DNA of 47,111 nucleotides from a bacterium (GCA_029007115.1 JAQXHG010000049.1:1-47111), one strand, 5' to 3'. Positions 529 to 23,938 are shown, counted from the stretch's first letter. The notes: generated by a model not told the origin, from the sequence alone. Program-made: numbers and translations.

Positions 529-2868
529 TTATTCATATATAGCCTCAAAATAACTACCATACCATATTTTAACTCTTTCATTAGGTTTGTATTTTATTCC
601 TGTAGACATATCGTACCAATATAAAATATTTTTACCAAAACTATTTGTACTATCTAAATAAAAATAACTTCCCTCATCTATTAATTTTTCATATCCTAAG
701 CTTGTTTTTACAACCCATTGTCTTATACCATCTTTATTGACATTTGGTGGTAACAACATATCTTTATTCATTTGATTTTGAAGTAGATAATACTTAAATG
801 TATCTTTACTCAAATAACCTAAATTAGCTAAATACTTACCTTCACTAGCTCTAAGGCCAGAAAACATATAATATGGCATTATATCATTAAATTCTAAATA
901 ATCATAAAGGTTATTTTTATCATTAATTACTTGATTTCTATTTAACCACATAATGTTATCATCAAAACCATACAAATTAGATAATATTACTGTTCCATCA
1001 GTTGTTAAAATATTGTTAGCAATTATATTATAATATCTAGTAGAAACCACATGATAATAATTTACTTCTTCATACACATATTCTATACTAACTACAGTAG
1101 CTGATATAAAACCAGTTTTATCTTCATTCATAATAGCAACAGTTGTACCAATATCAAATTCTTCTCTATTATCAACCGAAACAAATCTATTAAGGTCCAT
1201 ATTATATATGCCATGATATCCTATTGTTTTTAACTCATCTCCTGAAGAAAATTTTGTTAACTGATAAGATTGCGCTTTATGTTCTTTTTCTATCCAAATA
1301 GGATATTCATATACCATACGTCCCTCTTCATAACTCCAAACAAGAAGCAAATCATCATATCTTACGTTTTCGATGTTTTTAGTGCTTCCATCAGCTAAAC
1401 TAATTTTTGTTCCTTCTATTAAACATACACCACTTCCTCTAGCAGTAATGGTAATATCTCCATTTACATTAGGAATAGATATTTGTCCTGTACTACTACT
1501 ATATGTATAATCTGTACCATTTACTAGTGTAACACCATTCATAGTAACTGTAATAGAAACTGGCAAACTTACATTTCCTGAAACCGACAATGTTGCAGTA
1601 TATGTACTTCCTAATGAAGCAGTACTAGCACCTGAGGAAGTTAAATAAGTTAAATTATTAGTAACATTAAATATCCATTTTAAAGCAACAGTAGGAGATT
1701 GACGACAATAAATTGAATTAGTCGTTGCATCATTTACATATTCACTTCCATTATTTCCAGCTTGATCTGTTCCGTATATCTTAACGTAATAACTTCCTTC
1801 TTCAAGACCAGTAATACTATAACTTGTCAAATCACTATTATTATTATAAGTGTTTACTAAAGTATCATTTGTAGAATTATAAAGTAATATTGTATAACCA
1901 GTAATGCTAGTTCCACCACTATCTAGTCTACTCCAAGTAAGATCAGCCTGTCCTTCGTTATTGTTTATAGTAAAACTAATTTCGCCTATTTCTGGAATAC
2001 TAGTATCACTTAACTCTGACTTATCAACAGAAACAGTTATCTTACTAGTATTATAGTTTCCTAAAGTACCACATTGTAATATTAATATTGTATTATCAGT
2101 TGAATCATAAAATACACCATTATCTGTCTTTTTCAAGTAAATTTGATAATTATCTACAGTATTTGCTAAAATAGTAAAACTTCCCAAATCTGTTCCATCA
2201 CTATTTACTAAAGAAAAATTATTATTGCTAGATTTTATATTAAAAGTAATATTTCTACCATATGTGTTCATAACCTCTAAATTAATTAAAGCTAATTCAT
2301 TAGTACCAGTTAAATCTACAGATAATGGTGATACACTTGTAAAAATAGAACCTTTTTCATTATAATTTAATACAATGTCACTCTTAGCACTTATATCATA
2401 TGTTTGATTTGGATCACTTACATCTAAAATCAATTTTAATGTAACCGTTAAAATCTCTCCAGGAGAAATTACATCTCCATCATTAATATTAATAACTTCA
2501 AAAGATAATTGTCCACTTCCATCACCACTCGCAGTAACAATTGGTGTAAAATTAAAGGAATTATATGTATAACTATAGCTACTTTCATTTATGAAGTCAG
2601 CTGTATATATTGCATAATACTCAGTCTCAGTACCACCAAAACTTAAATTAAACTCAATTGTATTATCTGTAATAATTGGTGGAACACTACTTATAACATT
2701 AGAAGTATCAGTAAGTATTATATTATCTATACGAAATTTGCCATCTGGCTTTAAATTAATATTCCCGGAAAACTCTAGTAGTTGTCCATAGTATGCATAT
2801 CCTACACTCATAAAAGAAATGATTAGTAAAACAAATATATATATAATAACATTTCGATTTTTTGACAT
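529..2868 (-). CDS. Large secreted surface protein with FN3-like domain and Hint (hedgehog/intein) domain
   Basis: 779 residues. The N-terminal hydrophobic segment (about 8-26) ends in MSVGYAYY, matching MSVGFAAF in the TasA-like protein of the same locus, so both are probable SipW substrates. Beta-rich regions follow: about 40-285, a fibronectin-III-like domain (about 290-385), and a beta domain (about 397-478) ending in a TGQISIPNVNGDITITA motif common in gut Firmicutes surface proteins. A Hint domain spans about 482-625. Cys482 starts block A (CLIEGTKI, then ADGS and the DD pair 505-506), T548-H552 fits the block B Thr/His region, and YHVVS with YNIIANNIL (605-621) fits the block F strand. 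The C-terminal His-Asn of inteins is absent, so cleavage rather than splicing is expected. The last 155 residues end in a Listeria-Bacteroides-type repeat (YKPNERVKIWYGSYFEAIY). Exact function is unknown. Confidence 0.8.
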   Translation of the reverse strand: MSKNRNVIIYIFVLLIISFMSVGYAYYGQLLEFSGNINLKPDGKFRIDNIILTDTSNVISSVPPIITDNTIEFNLSFGGTETEYYAIYTADFINESSYSYTYNSFNFTPIVTASGDGSGQLSFEVININDGDVISPGEILTVTLKLILDVSDPNQTYDISAKSDIVLNYNEKGSIFTSVSPLSVDLTGTNELALINLEVMNTYGRNITFNIKSSNNNFSLVNSDGTDLGSFTILANTVDNYQIYLKKTDNGVFYDSTDNTILILQCGTLGNYNTSKITVSVDKSELSDTSIPEIGEISFTINNNEGQADLTWSRLDSGGTSITGYTILLYNSTNDTLVNTYNNNSDLTSYSITGLEEGSYYVKIYGTDQAGNNGSEYVNDATTNSIYCRQSPTVALKWIFNVTNNLTYLTSSGASTASLGSTYTATLSVSGNVSLPVSITVTMNGVTLVNGTDYTYSSSTGQISIPNVNGDITITARGSGVCLIEGTKISLADGSTKNIENVRYDDLLLVWSYEEGRMVYEYPIWIEKEHKAQSYQLTKFSSGDELKTIGYHGIYNMDLNRFVSVDNREEFDIGTTVAIMNEDKTGFISATVVSIEYVYEEVNYYHVVSTRYYNIIANNILTTDGTVILSNLYGFDDNIMWLNRNQVINDKNNLYDYLEFNDIMPYYMFSGLRASEGKYLANLGYLSKDTFKYYLLQNQMNKDMLLPPNVNKDGIRQWVVKTSLGYEKLIDEGSYFYLDSTNSFGKNILYWYDMSTGIKYKPNERVKIWYGSYFEAIYE

Positions 2869-2900
2869 TTTATTTTCCTTTTCTATTATATTATAAATAA

Positions 2901-3986
2901 TTAAGACTTCTTTTTTAAAATTCTTTTTCTATAATTTTCATCTAACAATGTATACATCCAAACAATGTCACCATTAATAAGTACAAAAACACTTTTACAT
3001 CCAGGCTTCTCTTCAAAATAATTAATTGGCATTCTTACTTCACTATGAGCATCAATTAATTCATCAAATGATAGTACATTAATAACTTTATATTTATTAA
3101 AATTAGGAATACTACTAACATTAACAATTATACTATCATATGCAGACATTATTTTTTTAAGTTCTATCGCATATTTACTTTTACTTTTATATAACATTAT
3201 TAATTCGTAAATAAATATTCCAAGTAGTATAATTGCTAATACTCCTAAAATAGTACCAAGCACTAAAAATATTTTATATTTAATATTATCTAATACAACC
3301 TCTTCTACTATGCTTCCAGAATTACTATCATTTTCAGCATTAATAGATAATTCAATTGCTTGCTCAGTAAGAGGAATAGTTAATTCAGAAGAAGAATTTA
3401 TATTAGCAACATTTTCAATTAACTCACTCTTTGTCTCACTTTCAACAATAAGTTCTAATTTTAATAAGCCAGTGATAGATAATCCATATTCTTTTCTAAA
3501 TTCTTTAAGCAAATCACTATATTTCTGATAATCAACTATTACGCTAGTGGTGATATTATAATTATTAATTTTACTAAATTCAATAGTTTCTGGTTCTGTT
3601 AAAATATAAGATTTAGACCAATAATTTGTATTACTAGATGCATCTTTATCAGCTAAAATAGTAGCTTTTACATAATAATTATACTTTCCAGATACAAGTT
3701 CACTATATTTAAGATTATATGTAAAAATAACATCTAAATGATCAATTAAACTTGCAATATAAGTTTTATTCATAGTTAAATATTCTTCATTAAAAAAGTT
3801 ATTTTTTTTCAAATATACTTTATAATTTATATCACTGCTACTTTCATAATCTAAAACATTTTTTATCTTATTATCTAATCCCATTCTTATATAAAAATAA
3901 GAGCACATACTTAAAATGATGATTGAAAAAACAATGAGTAAATAATAAATTTTTCTCATTAACAAAGAATTATCATCATTTTTCAT
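2901..3986 (-). CDS. DUF5305-like two-pass membrane protein of the SipW locus
   Basis: 361 residues. One membrane segment lies near 10-30 and a second near 238-260. Between them is an extracytoplasmic region of about 200 residues with the pattern typical of DUF5305 (YNYYVKATI, then a Trp-Ser-Lys stretch before a Pro-Glu-Thr, then VIVDYQKY). After the second helix come about 100 cytoplasmic residues ending in a basic tail. DUF5305 proteins are found beside SipW-type peptidases and TasA-like proteins in bacteria and archaea; their role is not established. The gene sits between the peptidase and the Hint protein with 22- and 32-base gaps, so it is surely co-transcribed. An assembly or anchoring role is inference from position only. 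Confidence 0.65.
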   Translation of the reverse strand: MKNDDNSLLMRKIYYLLIVFSIIILSMCSYFYIRMGLDNKIKNVLDYESSSDINYKVYLKKNNFFNEEYLTMNKTYIASLIDHLDVIFTYNLKYSELVSGKYNYYVKATILADKDASSNTNYWSKSYILTEPETIEFSKINNYNITTSVIVDYQKYSDLLKEFRKEYGLSITGLLKLELIVESETKSELIENVANINSSSELTIPLTEQAIELSINAENDSNSGSIVEEVVLDNIKYKIFLVLGTILGVLAIILLGIFIYELIMLYKSKSKYAIELKKIMSAYDSIIVNVSSIPNFNKYKVINVLSFDELIDAHSEVRMPINYFEEKPGCKSVFVLINGDIVWMYTLLDENYRKRILKKKS

Positions 3987-4008
3987 ATTATCACCACACT
4001 TATTCTTT

Positions 4009-5124
4009 TTATATATTACCTAGTTTTTCATTAATCCATATTGTTGGATAGCCAACATAAGGAATCTTATGTATCACAATTCCTTTAACATTACTACCAC
4101 TAACAGTTCCAGCATCAATATTTTTATTATTATCCCCTTTTGTGATAAATTGATAATCACCATTTTTATATTGAATATTTACTACTCTATGTGTTATTAA
4201 TATATTATTTTTAGTAAAAGCAATAATTGATCCTATTTTTACTTCTTCAAGTGATTTTATCTTAGTAAAGATTACCGCATCACCACGCTTATATATTGGT
4301 TCCATACTACCAGATCCAATTGCAATCATTTGATATTTTCCAATACCTGATGTAAGTAATGCAATTATAAATAAGAATGAAATCACAGGATATAATATAT
4401 ATTTTTTCTTTATTGTAGTCAAATATTTACTACTTTTGTCATAAGATTGAATAGTTTTATATATCATTACATAAACTAAAGCCGGATATAATATTCCAAA
4501 AAGAGACATTAAATATTCTCCTAAATTTGGAAATATAGGTATAATGTATATATATAAGCCAAATGTCAGTTTCATAATTAATGTAGGTATGAAACTAATC
4601 TTATAAGTAATATAACTACATAAAATTTCGTAAGAAATACTTTTTAATACTACTAAACATATGAACTTGAACAATATTTCGAAATTGTAAAAATTGTATC
4701 CATTAATTTGAGTAAAAATTTCTAAAAATACATATACTAAAGTAAGCATAATATAGGGCTTTATATCATCTACACAATTTTTAGCATAAATATATCGAAT
4801 AAGTTCTTGGCAAGTAATTAAAGTGAAAGGATATAGCATATTCATAATGATTGACTTAAGATTTAAATCAAAAAAATTTTTACTAAATCCCGTAATTAAA
4901 CCTAGACTATAAGTAATTAAAAAATATGAAAATATACTAATTATTATAATTTGAATAGTATTATATTTTAAATAATTCTTATCTTTAGGAAAACCACATT
5001 TAAAAAATAAAAAGATAGTTAATAAAATCCACAATAAAATATTATAATTATTATCATTAAATAATACAATTAAAGATATAATTATTATATTACATATATA
5101 AAATGTCAATATATTTTTTTTCAT
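4009..5124 (-). CDS. sipW: SipW-type (ER-type) signal peptidase I with a multi-pass N-terminal extension
   Basis: 371 residues. The catalytic domain is C-terminal: GSGSMEP with nucleophile Ser273, then ITHRVV with His312 in place of the bacterial general-base Lys, and Asp residues in KGDNN (331) and further on. The Ser-His arrangement marks the ER/archaeal/SipW class, which processes TasA-like and camelysin-like proteins rather than general secretory proteins. It is about twice the size of B. subtilis SipW (190 residues) because of about 240 extra N-terminal residues with roughly seven predicted membrane helices. The origin of that extension is not clear. It follows the TasA-like gene by 69 bases and precedes the DUF5305-like gene, suggesting a dedicated processing enzyme for this locus. 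Confidence 0.9.
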   Translation of the reverse strand: MKKNILTFYICNIIIISLIVLFNDNNYNILLWILLTIFLFFKCGFPKDKNYLKYNTIQIIIISIFSYFLITYSLGLITGFSKNFFDLNLKSIIMNMLYPFTLITCQELIRYIYAKNCVDDIKPYIMLTLVYVFLEIFTQINGYNFYNFEILFKFICLVVLKSISYEILCSYITYKISFIPTLIMKLTFGLYIYIIPIFPNLGEYLMSLFGILYPALVYVMIYKTIQSYDKSSKYLTTIKKKYILYPVISFLFIIALLTSGIGKYQMIAIGSGSMEPIYKRGDAVIFTKIKSLEEVKIGSIIAFTKNNILITHRVVNIQYKNGDYQFITKGDNNKNIDAGTVSGSNVKGIVIHKIPYVGYPTIWINEKLGNI

Positions 5125-5193
5125 ATTTTTACTCGCTAATTATATATTTGTAATTATCAATTCGATAAACTAATATTTATAAATAATATTAAT

Positions 5194-5757
5194 CTATTCA
5201 GGTTTTTGTTCATATGAAAGAGAGGCAGTTAAAGGTATACGAACTTCTTCCTGTGGTAAATCATTTGGATTTTCTGGTGCTATATATTCTACACGAACTT
5301 TAACACTAGCAACACCATCAGTTGAATTTAACGTCTTAGACAATCCTGAAGTTGTTTGAGTATACTCTACACCATCATATGTTAATTTATGAGTTAAATA
5401 TTTAGATTGTGCTTCCGTCAATGAACTTAATGTAATTCCAACTAAATTAGCATTAAATGTACCTGAATTTTTTACATTAATTGTAAATTCATAAAAATCT
5501 CCTGGTTTAGATAACTTTACTTCATATGTGACTGATGTACCAGTAATTACTATATTCTTACTATCTACATTAACGCTTCCATCAGTTACTGTAAAACTAT
5601 CTGTTAAAAATTTAACATTCCAAGTTGATACACCAACTGTAGTATTACTATTAATATCTAATCTTTGAGTAAATGCTGCAAAACCTACTGACATAGTCAA
5701 TACCGCAATTGCCAAAACTGCAATAACCAGCATTTGTGTATTTCTTTGCTTTTTCAT
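5194..5757 (-). CDS. TasA/camelysin-like secreted protein with SipW-type signal peptide
   Basis: 187 residues. After a basic start, a hydrophobic segment (about 9-28) runs into MSVGFAAFTQRLDINSN, the hallmark of SipW-processed TasA/CalY-like proteins. The mature part is a small beta-sandwich-like domain with TFTINVKNSGTFNAN-type strands: KPGDFYEFTINVKNSG sits at about 85-100 and is followed by aliphatic strands. TasA relatives form extracellular fibres in Bacillus biofilms; fibre formation here is inference. It is the first gene of the four-gene surface locus and has a near-consensus promoter with a repeated upstream element. No clear terminator separates it from sipW. Confidence 0.8.
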   Translation of the reverse strand: MKKQRNTQMLVIAVLAIAVLTMSVGFAAFTQRLDINSNTTVGVSTWNVKFLTDSFTVTDGSVNVDSKNIVITGTSVTYEVKLSKPGDFYEFTINVKNSGTFNANLVGITLSSLTEAQSKYLTHKLTYDGVEYTQTTSGLSKTLNSTDGVASVKVRVEYIAPENPNDLPQEEVRIPLTASLSYEQKPE

Positions 5758-5817
5758 TTCTCCAATCCTTTCTATTTTAATTTATAATCACTTATAAATA
5801 TAGACTACTATACATAA

Positions 5818-5846
5818 ATTATACATCAGAATATATCAGCAGTCAA
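5818..5846 (-). promoter_or_regulatory. Promoter of the TasA-like/SipW/DUF5305/Hint operon
   Basis: On the minus strand, TTGACT (5841-5846) and TATAAT (5818-5823) are separated by exactly 17 bases, about 60 bases before the first ATG. It drives the TasA-like gene and probably all four genes, because no strong terminator lies between them. Confidence 0.85.
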
Positions 5847-5847
5847 C

Positions 5848-5890
5848 GATTTAAATATTGAAGTATTATGATTTAATTATTGAAGTATAA
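5848..5890 (-). repeat. Tandem 22-bp-period direct repeat abutting the operon's -35
   Basis: Two copies of a 19-base element (5848-5866 and 5870-5888) match at 18 of 19 positions. On the minus strand each reads ATACTTCAATAATTAAATC or nearly so. The spacing of 22 bases is about two helical turns, and the block starts one base upstream of the -35. This is the layout expected for a dimeric activator or repressor; the protein is not known. Confidence 0.7.
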
Positions 5891-5970: not shown

Positions 5971-6186
5971 TTAATTAAATTTTGTTAATATCACATTCTT
6001 AATAACTACATCTGAATAAGAAAATGCCTTTATTCCTTTATTGGTTTCAACAACAAAAACATTTGGATGAATCTTATTTATAAATCCCTCATAATACTCA
6101 TACTTGTTACGGCCTAAATTTACTTTTATTTTAATTTTAGATTTACCAAAACTTTTTAGTTTATTTTTGATTTTTTCTATGTTCAA
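5971..6186 (-). CDS. veg: Veg family protein
   Basis: 71 residues. The SH3-like core resembles B. subtilis Veg: a Gly-Arg turn, then EGFINKIHPNVFVVE and a FSYSDV strand. The start is TTG (6184-6186), with the Shine-Dalgarno AAGGTGAT 4 bases upstream; no in-frame ATG fits. Veg is a small, highly expressed protein linked in B. subtilis to biofilm matrix expression and spore outgrowth. The yabG-veg order is the same as in Bacillus. Here it also lies next to a TasA-like operon, which fits the biofilm link, though position alone does not prove it. Confidence 0.85.
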   Translation of the reverse strand: MNIEKIKNKLKSFGKSKIKIKVNLGRNKYEYYEGFINKIHPNVFVVETNKGIKAFSYSDVVIKNVILTKFN

Positions 6187-6225
6187 TTTATCACCTTATT
6201 TAAGAATATTATTATATTCATTATA

Positions 6226-6975
6226 TTATTCCTTTTTTCTTGGATATCCTATTCTCATAGTACCATTAATCACAAATCCACCTATTCCTTCACTACCATA
6301 TTTTGTTTTTGATAACATTTCTATTAAATCAATAGTTTTATCTTTGCTAGTTAATGCTATATATGTAGCAATTATAGCTGGATCTAAAGCATGAATATTA
6401 ATATGAGATGGACTTGATGCGAATGTAGAACCTGCTTTTATAAGTCCTTCATAATCACTTTGACATGCTCCTGCTATTATAATTACATTTGAATACTTAT
6501 CTCGAATTTGTTTAACAGTATCAATAAAATATTTACTATTCTTATATTTATCATTTTTATAATATGCATCATGACCAGTTATAACGACTATTTCAGGCTT
6601 GTGTTTTTGAATGAGATCATTTACTTTATCTTTAAAATCCTTTTCTTTAAATATATAACCATAATATTTTACTTTTTGTGTTTCATAATATTCTTTACAC
6701 TTTTCTAAATAATTTTTATCTGCATCTATATGAAGGACTCTACCAGGAATATAAAAATATTTATCCACATCTAAACTTCTAAGAGTACTTACTTCTTCTT
6801 TTTTTTTACTAATTGATGTTAATACTAAATCATTAATATATGCATCTGCATATAATCTAACATCTACTCCACTTAAAATAATTAAATCTTTATTTATACT
6901 TTTAATTTTAAATACGATATCATTATTGTACTTTTTTCTTGTGACATAATCACCAACTTTAAATCTACTATTCAT
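6226..6975 (-). CDS. yabG: YabG, sporulation-specific cysteine protease
   Basis: 249 residues against about 290 in B. subtilis. The N-terminal SH3-like part (FKVGDYVTRKKYNNDIVFKI) and the whole catalytic part match the family. VITGHDAY with His135 and IAGACQS with Cys171 correspond to the His and Cys regarded as active-site residues of Bacillus YabG. The C-terminal FASSPSHINIHALDP stretch is also conserved. YabG trims spore coat proteins and, in clostridia, germination proteins. The gap relative to Bacillus is in the variable helical segment after the SH3 part. No strong Shine-Dalgarno is seen at this ATG. It lies upstream of veg, as in Bacillus, and its presence argues that the organism sporulates or recently did. 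Confidence 0.95.
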   Translation of the reverse strand: MNSRFKVGDYVTRKKYNNDIVFKIKSINKDLIILSGVDVRLYADAYINDLVLTSISKKKEEVSTLRSLDVDKYFYIPGRVLHIDADKNYLEKCKEYYETQKVKYYGYIFKEKDFKDKVNDLIQKHKPEIVVITGHDAYYKNDKYKNSKYFIDTVKQIRDKYSNVIIIAGACQSDYEGLIKAGSTFASSPSHINIHALDPAIIATYIALTSKDKTIDLIEMLSKTKYGSEGIGGFVINGTMRIGYPRKKE

Positions 6976-7083: not shown

Positions 7084-8925
7084 TTATTTATCAAATAGTT
7101 CATTAATTATTCTATCTAAGTCAGTAGTATTTATTGGTTTTGATAAGTATTCATCGAATCCTTCACTTAGATACATTTCTCTCATACCTGCAACAGCATT
7201 TGCAGTTAATGCAATAATAGGAGGTAACTCATAACCATTTAATTTCTTAAGTACATGTAATGTTTCAATACCATCCATCTCTGGCATCATATGATCCATG
7301 AATATTGCATCATAATGTGTTCCTTCTTTAATTTTATAAACACAATCTTTACCAGAAGTAACACTTTCAACTTTAAATTTATAAGTTTCAAGAAGTCTTT
7401 TTGCAACTTTAATATTTAAATTATTATCATCTACAATTAAAACAGTGTATTTAGAACAGTCAAGTTTTTCTGTAGATTGTTTTTTCTCTTTTGCAACGCC
7501 AACAGGAGTAGCATCAACTATTTTTTGTGGAACTTCAATATAGAAAGTAGTACCAACCCTATATTGACTATCAAACCATATTTTCCCTCCTAATAGTTCA
7601 ATATACTCTTTAGTTATTGCTAAACCTAACCCGCTACCTTCAACTTCATTTTGCTTAGCATTTGCAAGTCTAACACCTTTTTGGAATAACATTGCTTGTT
7701 CTTCTTCTTTAATACCTGAACCAGTATCACTAATTTTAAATAATAAATTTTCAACATTTGATGCCTTTGTACTAGTTAAAGTAAATGTGATTTTACCAAC
7801 ATCAGTAAATTTAGCAGCATTTGTAACTATATTTGTTAATGCTTGGTATAATTTAGAATAATCACCATTTAATACTGATGATATATTTTGATCAACATTG
7901 ACCATTAATTTTACTTGCTTAGCACCAATTTTAGATTTAGCAATATTAATAACATCCGTTAATAAATTATTAACTTTATAATCCCTTTCTTGAAGAGTAC
8001 CTTTACCTGTTTCAATTTTAGATATATCTAATATATTATTTACTATATCTAACAAACTATTACCCGATGTGTATATTTGAGATATATCCTCTCTAACAAG
8101 TTTCTCATTAAATACTGGCATACTTTTCAATTCATCACATAAACTAACAATAAGATTCATTGGAACTTTTATTTCAGATGTCATATTTGATAAGAAATCT
8201 GTTTTTGTTTGATTAGATTGTTCAATATCTCCTTGTGCGGTTGTTATTTCTTCTAAGATTTCTAAATCTGGATTTTCAATAAAGAAATATAAATCATATA
8301 ATTGCAATATTAATGCAAAAGGTAAAAATGAAACCTGAGTAAATATTATTTGCAATGGTATAAAAACTAAAGGAATAATAACAGCATAAATATAATATTT
8401 CTTTTTATATTTAGAAATATTTTTCTTTGTTGTTGACAAAGTAATTATTGTGACAATAAACACAATTAATAAACATGCTATATAAAAATATATACTGTAG
8501 TTTGGAATAAAATTTAATGCTTCTGAGTCAATGTTGTCTATTGGCAAAATAATATATGCTATTGTAATTATTAATATTAATGCAGATACAATTTTAGATA
8601 TTAAATTACCAACAAATAATTCTTTAATAGACTTTTTTTCTTCCACAGATAGTGCACATAATATATAATAGCAAAAAATTAAATTAAACATTAAACAAAT
8701 CACAAAATGAAATTTAAAAATAATGGTATTTATTAAATTAGAGTCAATTACATCTAATAATAATATAGATATTATTTCAAAAGTAGAAAAGGATAAACTA
8801 AGTAATAATAATAATTTAAACATAAATGTCTTTAAATTTTTGAAGGTTTGTTTTTTAAAGTATATCATTAATAATAGTAAAATAAATGCAACTGTACCTT
8901 CAGTTAATATTAATTCAAATGTCAT
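7084..8925 (-). CDS. Hybrid histidine kinase with intact ATPase but Ser replacing the phospho-acceptor His
   Basis: 613 residues. An N-terminal part with about seven membrane helices (1-215) is followed by a HisKA-like dimerisation region, an HATPase_c domain and a receiver. The H-box reads SNMTSEIKVPMN instead of [11 protein letters not shown], so Ser250 replaces the phospho-acceptor His. The ATP-binding motifs are intact: N-box LTNIVTNAAKF (Asn369), G1 SDTGSGI (Asp400) and G2 GSGLGLAI (430-437). The receiver keeps Asp499/Asp500, phospho-acceptor Asp544 in FMDHMMPEMDG, and Lys596. It follows its partner kinase by 18 bases with a good RBS (GGGAGTG). It probably cannot autophosphorylate in cis. 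No DNA-binding response regulator is adjacent. Confidence 0.9.
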   Translation of the reverse strand: MTFELILTEGTVAFILLLLMIYFKKQTFKNLKTFMFKLLLLLSLSFSTFEIISILLLDVIDSNLINTIIFKFHFVICLMFNLIFCYYILCALSVEEKKSIKELFVGNLISKIVSALILIITIAYIILPIDNIDSEALNFIPNYSIYFYIACLLIVFIVTIITLSTTKKNISKYKKKYYIYAVIIPLVFIPLQIIFTQVSFLPFALILQLYDLYFFIENPDLEILEEITTAQGDIEQSNQTKTDFLSNMTSEIKVPMNLIVSLCDELKSMPVFNEKLVREDISQIYTSGNSLLDIVNNILDISKIETGKGTLQERDYKVNNLLTDVINIAKSKIGAKQVKLMVNVDQNISSVLNGDYSKLYQALTNIVTNAAKFTDVGKITFTLTSTKASNVENLLFKISDTGSGIKEEEQAMLFQKGVRLANAKQNEVEGSGLGLAITKEYIELLGGKIWFDSQYRVGTTFYIEVPQKIVDATPVGVAKEKKQSTEKLDCSKYTVLIVDDNNLNIKVAKRLLETYKFKVESVTSGKDCVYKIKEGTHYDAIFMDHMMPEMDGIETLHVLKKLNGYELPPIIALTANAVAGMREMYLSEGFDEYLSKPINTTDLDRIINELFDK

Positions 8926-8943
8926 CTTAATTTCACTCCCTTC

Positions 8944-10839
8944 CTAATTACCATTTTGACCAAATATTTTATTAATTAATTTATTTAAATCTCTAAAATT
9001 AAGTGGTTTTTGAAGATAATCTGTGAAACCTTCTGAAATAAATCTTTCTTTTAGACCTCTATATCCATTTGCTGTTAATGCAATTATTGGTGGTAATTTT
9101 TTACCAGTTGCTTCCATAGCTTTAACAGTTTGAACTCCATCCATATCAGGCATCATATGATCTATAAACACAATATCATAATCATTATTTTTAATATATT
9201 CAACACAATCTCTTCCATTGGTAGCAGTAGTAACAGTAAAATTAAATTGATTCATATATCTCGATGCTAGTTTTAAATTTATTTCACTATCATCAACTAT
9301 TAATACTTTCTTACCTTCACAATTTAATATATCTCTACTACTAGAAACATGTCCAACATTACTTTCAAATATATTTCCAATTTTTTCTTCATTAGTTATT
9401 TTTTGTTTTATTCTAATAAAATATCTAGTTCCATGTCCTCTTTCATTAACAAATTCAATTTCACCACCCATTAACTCAGTCAATTGTTTTGCTATAATTA
9501 ATCCAAGATTAATAGTTTTTACATTATTTTTTTGTGATGCATTTTCAATTTTTACATAATCTGCAAAATCCATATTAAAGCTTTCTTGAGTCATTGCATG
9601 ACCTGTATTTGAAACTAAGAAACAAAATTCAAAATTTTGAGGGTCTACTTTTTTACCATCAACATTAAGTTTAATTTCACCATAATTAGTATAATCAATT
9701 GCATTTTTTAATACATAGCATAAAATTTTAATTAATTTATAAGCATCACCATAATAACCTTTAGGTATACTTTCGTTTATTTCAATAGTAAATTTTAATT
9801 CTTCTTTTTCTATCTTTGCTGGAATTAAGCTATTAATTTCAAATATTAATGTCTCTAAATTATATTCAGAATCATTTAATACTTCTTCACCAGATTCAAG
9901 TCTTGAAATATCTAATATATTATTAATTAAGTCCATTAAAGTTGAACTTGCTGAATTGATACTTTTTAAATCATTTTTAACTGTTTCTTCAACAAGTACA
10001 GGATCTTTCAATAATGATTCACTGAAACCTAAAATAGTATTCATTGGAGTTCTAATCTCATGTGACATATTAATTAAAAACTCTGTCTTTGCTTTATTTG
10101 CAATTTCTGCTTCTTCTTTTGATTTTTTATATTCTTCTAACAATTTATTATCTTGACTTTCAATTGTAAAATATAAAGTTTCAATTATTATTGAGAAAAA
10201 TAATACAGTATCATTAACTTGATAATTATAAAATGTTTGAATCAAAGTAATCAATATAAAAGCTAATATTATTATATAAATAGGAGTCATCCATATATTT
10301 TTAATAATGTTTCTATAACTTGATAAAATTGTTATTAATACAAATCCTCCCAAAATAATTAATATATTTAATATAGTAACAGCTGTTCCACCTATAACAT
10401 ATGGTGTTCCATTCATACCATTAGAGTATTCAACTTTAAATATAATAGACATAAGAATTGCTATAACAATTGCAACAATTATATATATAATAAAAAATTT
10501 ATTTTTGTTTTTATTTTTATATTTTTCTTCATTATTTAGTAACAAAGTAGTAATGTATAATACAAATCCTCCAGCCCAAAGATATATAAGAACAATATAC
10601 AATCTACCTAAAATTGTATTTAATATAGTTAAATTATCTATCTTAGAAATTGTATAGCTAGTTGCAAACTCTAAAAACAATAATAATATTGTAATAATTA
10701 ATAAATAAAAGAATATACGACTTTCTTCATTATTTTTTTTCTTCTTTGTTATAAACATTACAAATACTGTAAGCATAAATAATAAACCACTTAATGTAAA
10801 TCCAATACTTGCAAAATATGAGTCTATCACACAAACCAC
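8944..10839 (-). CDS. Hybrid histidine kinase with intact His but degenerate ATP-binding motifs
   Basis: 631 residues: about seven membrane helices (1-225), a coiled-coil linker, HisKA, an HATPase_c-like domain and a receiver. The H-box [11 protein letters not shown] is canonical (His260). In the ATPase domain Asn379 of the N-box remains, but G1 is SNTGHAM, with Asn411 instead of the essential Asp, and G2 is TINLGLII, missing the first glycines. The receiver is intact (Asp516/517, Asp560 in [10 protein letters not shown], Lys611). The start used is GTG at 10837-10839; a GTG three codons later is better placed relative to the AAAGGGA Shine-Dalgarno and may be the real start. It is first in the operon and is a close paralogue of the next gene. 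Confidence 0.9.
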
Positions 10840-23812: not shown

Positions 23813-23832
23813 AATATCTCCTCATAAAAAAA

Positions 23833-23905
23833 GTGCACACGAATTTGCTTTTTAAGGCTGCTATCTTCCGACTCTGACCTGGTTCAAACCATTTTCGTTG
23901 CACGC
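23833..23905 (-). ncRNA. ffs: Signal recognition particle RNA (small bacterial type)
   Basis: About 73 nt on the minus strand. The conserved helix-8 core is present: ACCAGGTCAG, the GGAA tetraloop in GTCGGAAGATAGCAG, and the closing strand with AGCAGCC. The ends pair (GTGCAACGAA with TTCGTGTGCAC), and seven T follow immediately, so the closing stem doubles as a terminator. It binds Ffh and targets membrane proteins. It is the small type without the Alu domain found in Bacillus scRNA (about 270 nt). Confidence 0.93.
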
Positions 23906-23909
23906 ATAT

Positions 23910-23938
23910 ATATTACACTAATTTTTTTAAAAAATCAA
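23910..23938 (-). promoter_or_regulatory. Promoter of the SRP RNA
   Basis: On the minus strand, TTGATT (23933-23938) and TAATAT (23910-23915) are 17 bases apart. Initiation about 6 bases downstream would fall at the 5' end of the RNA. Confidence 0.7.

Follow-up and report, generated by a model that had tools for sequence, protein, structure and literature searches.

The locus considered here is probably a surface-fibre module of the TasA/SipW type, in which a large accessory protein carries an autoprocessing domain related to B-type BIL and Hedgehog Hint domains; this degree of confidence applies to the reading as a whole, including the chemistry predicted at Cys482. The window, i.e. the whole stretch of DNA that was analysed, is a contig of 47,111 nt within a draft genome of 1.24 Mb. 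In the following, the locus and its products are described, and the possible fates of the predicted thioester are weighed against the distribution of the domain among other exported proteins.

Organization of the locus

Four co-directional genes occupy positions 529-5757 of the window on the minus strand, in the order tasA-like, sipW, DUF5305 and Hint protein, and are separated, in the direction of transcription, by gaps of 69, 22 and 32 nt. The co-directional cluster proposed in the initial annotation was thus recovered, all four open reading frames lying in place on the minus strand:

5818..5846, minus strand: promoter-like site TTGACT-17-TATAAT (consensus scan only)
5194..5757, minus strand: TasA-like exported protein, 187 residues, MSVGFA cleavage region (open reading frame; model pLDDT 87.3)
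4009..5124, minus strand: SipW-type, ER-like signal peptidase, 371 residues (TIGR02228, 93.2 bits)
2901..3986, minus strand: DUF5305 membrane protein, 361 residues (PF17231, 60.5 bits)
529..2868, minus strand: exported surface protein, 779 residues, with a C-terminal Hint domain (open reading frame; AlphaFold mean pLDDT 86.4; homologues at the same place of the operon)

The promoter-like site is the best match of its kind and lies 60 nt before the ATG of the tasA-like gene, while spoVG has a promoter-like match of its own at 450-422; in the consensus scan used, such matches are no commoner than shuffled sequence would give, and the scan detected no terminator-like site at the locus. Veg and YabG are encoded upstream (5971-6975) and SpoVG downstream (114-395), so that the locus, in what is a very small genome, has genes linked to sporulation or biofilms on both sides. 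Just upstream of YabG, two hybrid histidine kinases of the membrane are encoded in tandem, their C-terminal domains being receiver-like (7084-10839), and the bacterial small SRP RNA (RF00169, 51.3 bits) is located at 23816-23914 on the minus strand.

The signal peptidase, the DUF5305 protein and the TasA-like protein

The initial annotation had assigned an ER-type signal peptidase and a DUF5305-like gene to the locus, and both products score above the cut-offs of the respective families. The peptidase exceeds the TIGR02228 cut-off of 51.85 bits, which places it in the family with ER-type Ser/His catalysis, and its Ser273, His312 and Asp331 are invariant among 15 homologues. With NF046067, the Bacillus SipW equivalog family, it scores 67.9 bits, below the cut-off of 190; as judged by profile comparison, it is an enzyme of the same class as Bacillus SipW and not the Bacillus SipW equivalog itself. 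About 240 extra hydrophobic residues precede the catalytic domain, with Gly75, Gly79, Glu107 and Arg110 invariant or near-invariant among them; the idea that this part is a known membrane protease was dropped, no Pfam family having been found for it. The DUF5305 protein compares with a PF17231 cut-off of 29 bits.

The TasA-like protein matched no curated TasA family, NF046066 included. When its model was searched with Foldseek, the TasA fibre (8aur) was the only hit below E 1e-3 (E 6e-4), with low TM values (0.28-0.33). The SipW-cognate signal motif TIGR04088 gave no match in the window proteins at E up to 1. An MSVG[FY]A region is common to the TasA-like and the 779-residue proteins, as had been noticed at the outset for their cleavage regions, and Tyr or Phe occupies the presumed P2′ in 19 of the 23 homologues of the large protein having a motif of this type. 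Phe at P2′ has been reported for TasA, which is processed by SipW (PMC10269814).

Architecture of the large surface protein

The 779-residue protein is composed of the following parts:

2794..2868, minus strand: signal region, residues 1-25, ending in MSVGYA; the presumed P2′ residue is aromatic (YY) (sequence)
2344..2754, minus strand: N-terminal beta domain, residues ~39-175, remotely TasA-like at its start (profile and model)
1729..1992, minus strand: fibronectin type III-like domain, residues ~293-380 (profile A2 matches titin/fibronectin FN3, best E 5e-19)
994..1425, minus strand: Hint domain, residues ~482-625 (Foldseek, and profile match to BIL2 across the whole domain)
1423..1425, minus strand: Cys482, predicted nucleophile of the N-S acyl shift (44/44 homologues)
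1213..1215, minus strand: His552, the block B His (43/43 homologues)
997..1002, minus strand: Thr623-Asp624, at the position of the splicing His-Asn pair (alignment to BIL2)
532..993, minus strand: C-terminal tail, helical at ~627-697 and followed by a beta repeat; possibly similar to an adduct-recognition region (secondary structure of the model)

The TasA-like profile A5 matches residues 1-75 of the large protein (E 1.4e-5), and the N-terminal domain is all-beta in the AlphaFold model. Family profile searches recognized no wall anchor. The tail comprises ~150 residues, and tails with shared motifs also follow related Hint domains. This last feature bears on whether the domain could be of the PT-HINT type, which processes the pre-toxin region of polymorphic toxins: Hint or BIL domains are mentioned in the literature on Neisseria MafB and on CDI toxins, but here the region after the Hint domain is conserved across carriers rather than hypervariable, no toxin domain was recognized in the window protein and PF07591 has 0 matches in its own genome, which makes such a function very improbable.

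The Hint domain and its catalytic residues

Taken alone, the window protein is below threshold for a Hint assignment (TIGR01445, 13.3 bits; Hom_end_hint, 12.9), both alignments beginning exactly at Cys482. Searches with profiles built from homologues retrieved the Tetrahymena BIL2 structures, aligned along the entire domain (E 0.0018 and 2e-4), and the full-length AlphaFold model, in which the domain has a pLDDT of ~92, superimposes there with an rmsd of ~3 Å on BIL2 (6y75, TM 0.80), on the NpuDnaB intein (4o1r, TM 0.83) and on the Hedgehog Hint domain (6tyy, TM 0.78). With respect to Pfam Hint PF01079 (cut-off 29.7), the domains of two pilin-like proteins score 30.1 bits (L034) and 27.6 bits (L031), while no match was reported for the window protein.

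In the conservation set of 46 sequences, 44 cover the position of Cys482 and 43 that of His552, and each residue is present in every sequence that covers it, down to ~30% identity. Furthermore, Cys482 is the only cysteine common to all 18 full-length homologues; a second conserved cysteine (388) had been considered as an acceptor, and was dropped on being found in 13 of the 18 only. The residue preceding Cys482 is variable. The proposal of a Hint domain beginning at Cys482 is therefore borne out by the fold, the BIL2 profile matches and the conservation of the cysteine; indeed, a check fixed in advance, which looked for the lack of both a Hint hit and a Hint fold, found Hint profile matches and the fold alike. 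The proposed block B Thr/His pair stands as far as the histidine is concerned, whereas Thr548 is not conserved (24/43 homologues) and is placed four residues before His552, compared with three in inteins, i.e. one place earlier.

The splicing His-Asn pair, already noted as missing, is indeed absent in every homologue, with Thr-Thr-Asp, Thr-Ser-Arg and similar sequences in its stead. That the domain is an intein which interrupts a surface protein and splices itself out is hardly credible: the fold family is the same, yet the homologues have neither His-Asn nor a conserved nucleophile in the C-extein, and the domain is found at the C-terminus of unrelated proteins rather than inside a conserved host protein. 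The loss of catalysis altogether, with the fold retained to cap the terminus or to assist folding, deserves more weight and is nonetheless unlikely. It would agree with the lack of conservation of the block B Thr and of the block F Asp (the residue aligned with block F position 4, residue 606, is His, Asn or aromatic, not Asp), but not with the invariance of Cys482 and His552 while their neighbours vary, nor with a relative (L064) in which the Hint cysteine is the sole cysteine of the mature protein. As a whole, the domain matches a B-type BIL/Hedgehog-like Hint, with a predicted activity consisting of the formation of an N-terminal thioester and its resolution by hydrolysis or transfer.

Predicted mechanism and fate of the thioester

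After export through Sec, SipW would remove the signal peptides of the TasA-like and of the large protein. Outside the cell, Cys482, aided by His552, would then attack the preceding peptide bond leading to a thioester between residue 481 and Cys482, as the fold and the invariant residues suggest. Because His-Asn is absent, splicing could not follow, and the thioester would be resolved by an outside nucleophile. With water, the beta-rich part of ~455 residues would be released; with an amine or a hydroxyl group of fibre, wall or matrix, it would become covalently attached. Release and transfer are about equally likely, the conserved Hedgehog-like tail being an argument for transfer.

If the Hint domain only cuts, the beta-rich part would be shed from Hint domain and tail with no ligation. 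This is a realistic possibility: cleavage by B-type BILs at their N-terminal site (PMC7765530), with no splicing (PMC4031507; PMC7765530), has been described, and the large protein has no recognized wall anchor. However, a long conserved tail would not be required if the domain only hydrolysed, and the tail from which the beta-rich part would part company is only putatively cell-bound. If the thioester were instead transferred to the TasA-like fibre, to a pilus or to the wall, with an amine or a hydroxyl group as acceptor, a sortase-independent covalent link would be produced, as in the joining of Hedgehog to cholesterol. It is a plausible outcome, though one that falls short of being expected: a Hint domain with a conserved, partly helical C-terminal tail reproduces the layout of Hedgehog Hog, and the carriers are subunits of the fibre type, namely TasA-locus proteins, pilins and one collagen-like protein, while both the acceptor and binding by the tail are hypothetical and sortases are present. 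In Hedgehog lacking the region after the Hint domain, the thioester still forms and ligation stops (PMC7242414).

Sortases were detected in 20 of the 20 Hint genomes tested, with 1-7 matches each. The idea that the Hint domain substitutes for missing sortases was rejected on these grounds, and attachment by the Hint domain would therefore not be the only covalent route.

Conservation of the locus and distribution of the Hint domain

The gene order tasA-sipW-DUF5305-Hint was found in 23 loci, i.e. the window and 22 others, and the pairing of a Hint domain with a dedicated SipW peptidase, which had been suggested from the window alone, is supported by being kept in all of them. Relatives were retrieved by an alignment-based scan, a single-sequence Hint query of genome contigs having found none. 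The named records among them bear labels such as uncultured Bacilli, Tenericutes and Erysipelotrichaceae, and many are from rumen and gut. The Hint protein is encoded by two open reading frames in one of the 22 other loci, L062 (4707-7591), where the break is inside the Hint domain, and in L079 (1495-3859), where it precedes the domain; the cause may be a fault of assembly, gene decay or a genuine split.

DUF5305 is present in 127 of the 288 sampled genomes of the order, compared with 17 having a Hint match, weak partial matches included. Among 20 DUF5305 regions inspected, a sipW neighbour was seen in 19, a tasA-like neighbour in 20 and a Hint domain in none (in L151 the fourth gene runs off the contig); in L145 the fourth place is taken by a 447-residue protein matching the N-terminal part of the large protein, without Hint domain. 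Thus, from the difference between the two counts and from the Hint-less fourth gene, the Hint domain looks like a sporadic module added to a common, pre-existing operon.

A second arrangement consists of a short SipW (TIGR02228, 93-97 bits), a camelysin-type protein and an adjoining Hint protein, as in L055 (7170-11404) and L057 (4930-8912), two loci that also encode an exported protein of ~370 residues. In these loci, the camelysin-domain protein scores 40 bits with TIGR04088, the SipW-cognate signal. On the Hint tree, a single clade unites the four Hint domains from camelysin-type loci.

Hint domains on pilins and other exported proteins

The unit made of Hint domain and tail also ends type IV pilin-like proteins (L031, L032, L034, L035, L042, L044 and L045), with PF07963 above cut-off in L031 and L045. 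Since the pilin Hint domains branch at two distinct and well-supported positions of the Hint tree, pilins have, on this phylogeny, acquired the domain at least twice, and its recurrence on pilins suggests that it acts on exported fibre subunits. The Hint pilins of L044 and L045 are encoded among housekeeping-type genes, with no obvious pilus cluster. The same unit is also found at the end of large proteins from further families of the class, among them that of L154, with an open frame of 4168 residues. In a Burkholderiales MAG (L067:7065-8687), an exported collagen-like protein with GPTGPTGA repeats ends in the same Hint domain and tail, an apparent case of long-distance transfer or of a mis-binned contig. 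A phage origin was considered and discarded, as tblastn of a pilin-type Hint domain against 50,697 phage records gave no match.

A more general proposal, put forward tentatively, would be a sortase-independent, Hedgehog-like self-ligation: C-terminal Hint domains, with a tail that recognizes the acceptor, would couple matrix proteins exported by SipW, as well as type IV pilins, covalently to one another, to the wall or to some other molecule of the surface.

Comparison with known systems

The domain type itself is known (B-type BIL/Hedgehog-like Hint). As far as could be checked, what is new is the stable pairing with a SipW operon, the recurrence in a second SipW arrangement and the fusion with type IV pilins. 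No paper pairing SipW with a Hint domain was found in the open-access literature searched, and no title or abstract found in that literature describes a fusion of a Hint domain with a pilin or of an intein with a type IV pilin.

The SipW-TasA-TapA locus of Bacillus and the sipW-bsaABC locus of Clostridium perfringens are similar in that a single operon encodes SipW together with a small fibre protein and additional accessory proteins that are secreted (PMC7395162). The present locus differs from both in having a DUF5305 gene, a longer peptidase and an accessory protein with a Hint domain; neither ‘intein’ nor ‘Hint’ appears in the paper on C. perfringens (PMC7395162).

With B-type BILs, the domain shares the Hint fold, Cys1 and the block B His, the lack of a C-terminal His-Asn and the variable bacterial carriers; it differs in the conserved tail that follows it and in its fixed place in a SipW operon, its activity being predicted. 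What B-type BIL domains do in nature is, to our knowledge, unsettled. In the present case, a domain of this type keeps its place next to a dedicated export peptidase in many genomes and is found on pilins too, which ties it to exported fibre subunits.

The likeness to Hedgehog Hog, i.e. Hint plus SRR/ARR, lies in the C-terminal position of the Hint domain in an exported protein, in the helical region after it, in the structural similarity (TM 0.78) and in the match of a related domain to Pfam Hint (L034, just above the cut-off). In contrast to Hog, the carrier is a bacterial surface protein, the tail is likened to SRR by layout and there is no sign of sterol.

Finally, sortases build covalent surface assemblies through a thioester, and the same would be true of the locus described here if the hypothetical function of the Hint domain holds, with the difference that a single-turnover domain acting in cis, not an enzyme, would be at work. 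Should the thioester be transferred, bacteria would possess, as an alternative to sortase, a means of joining surface components covalently in cis.
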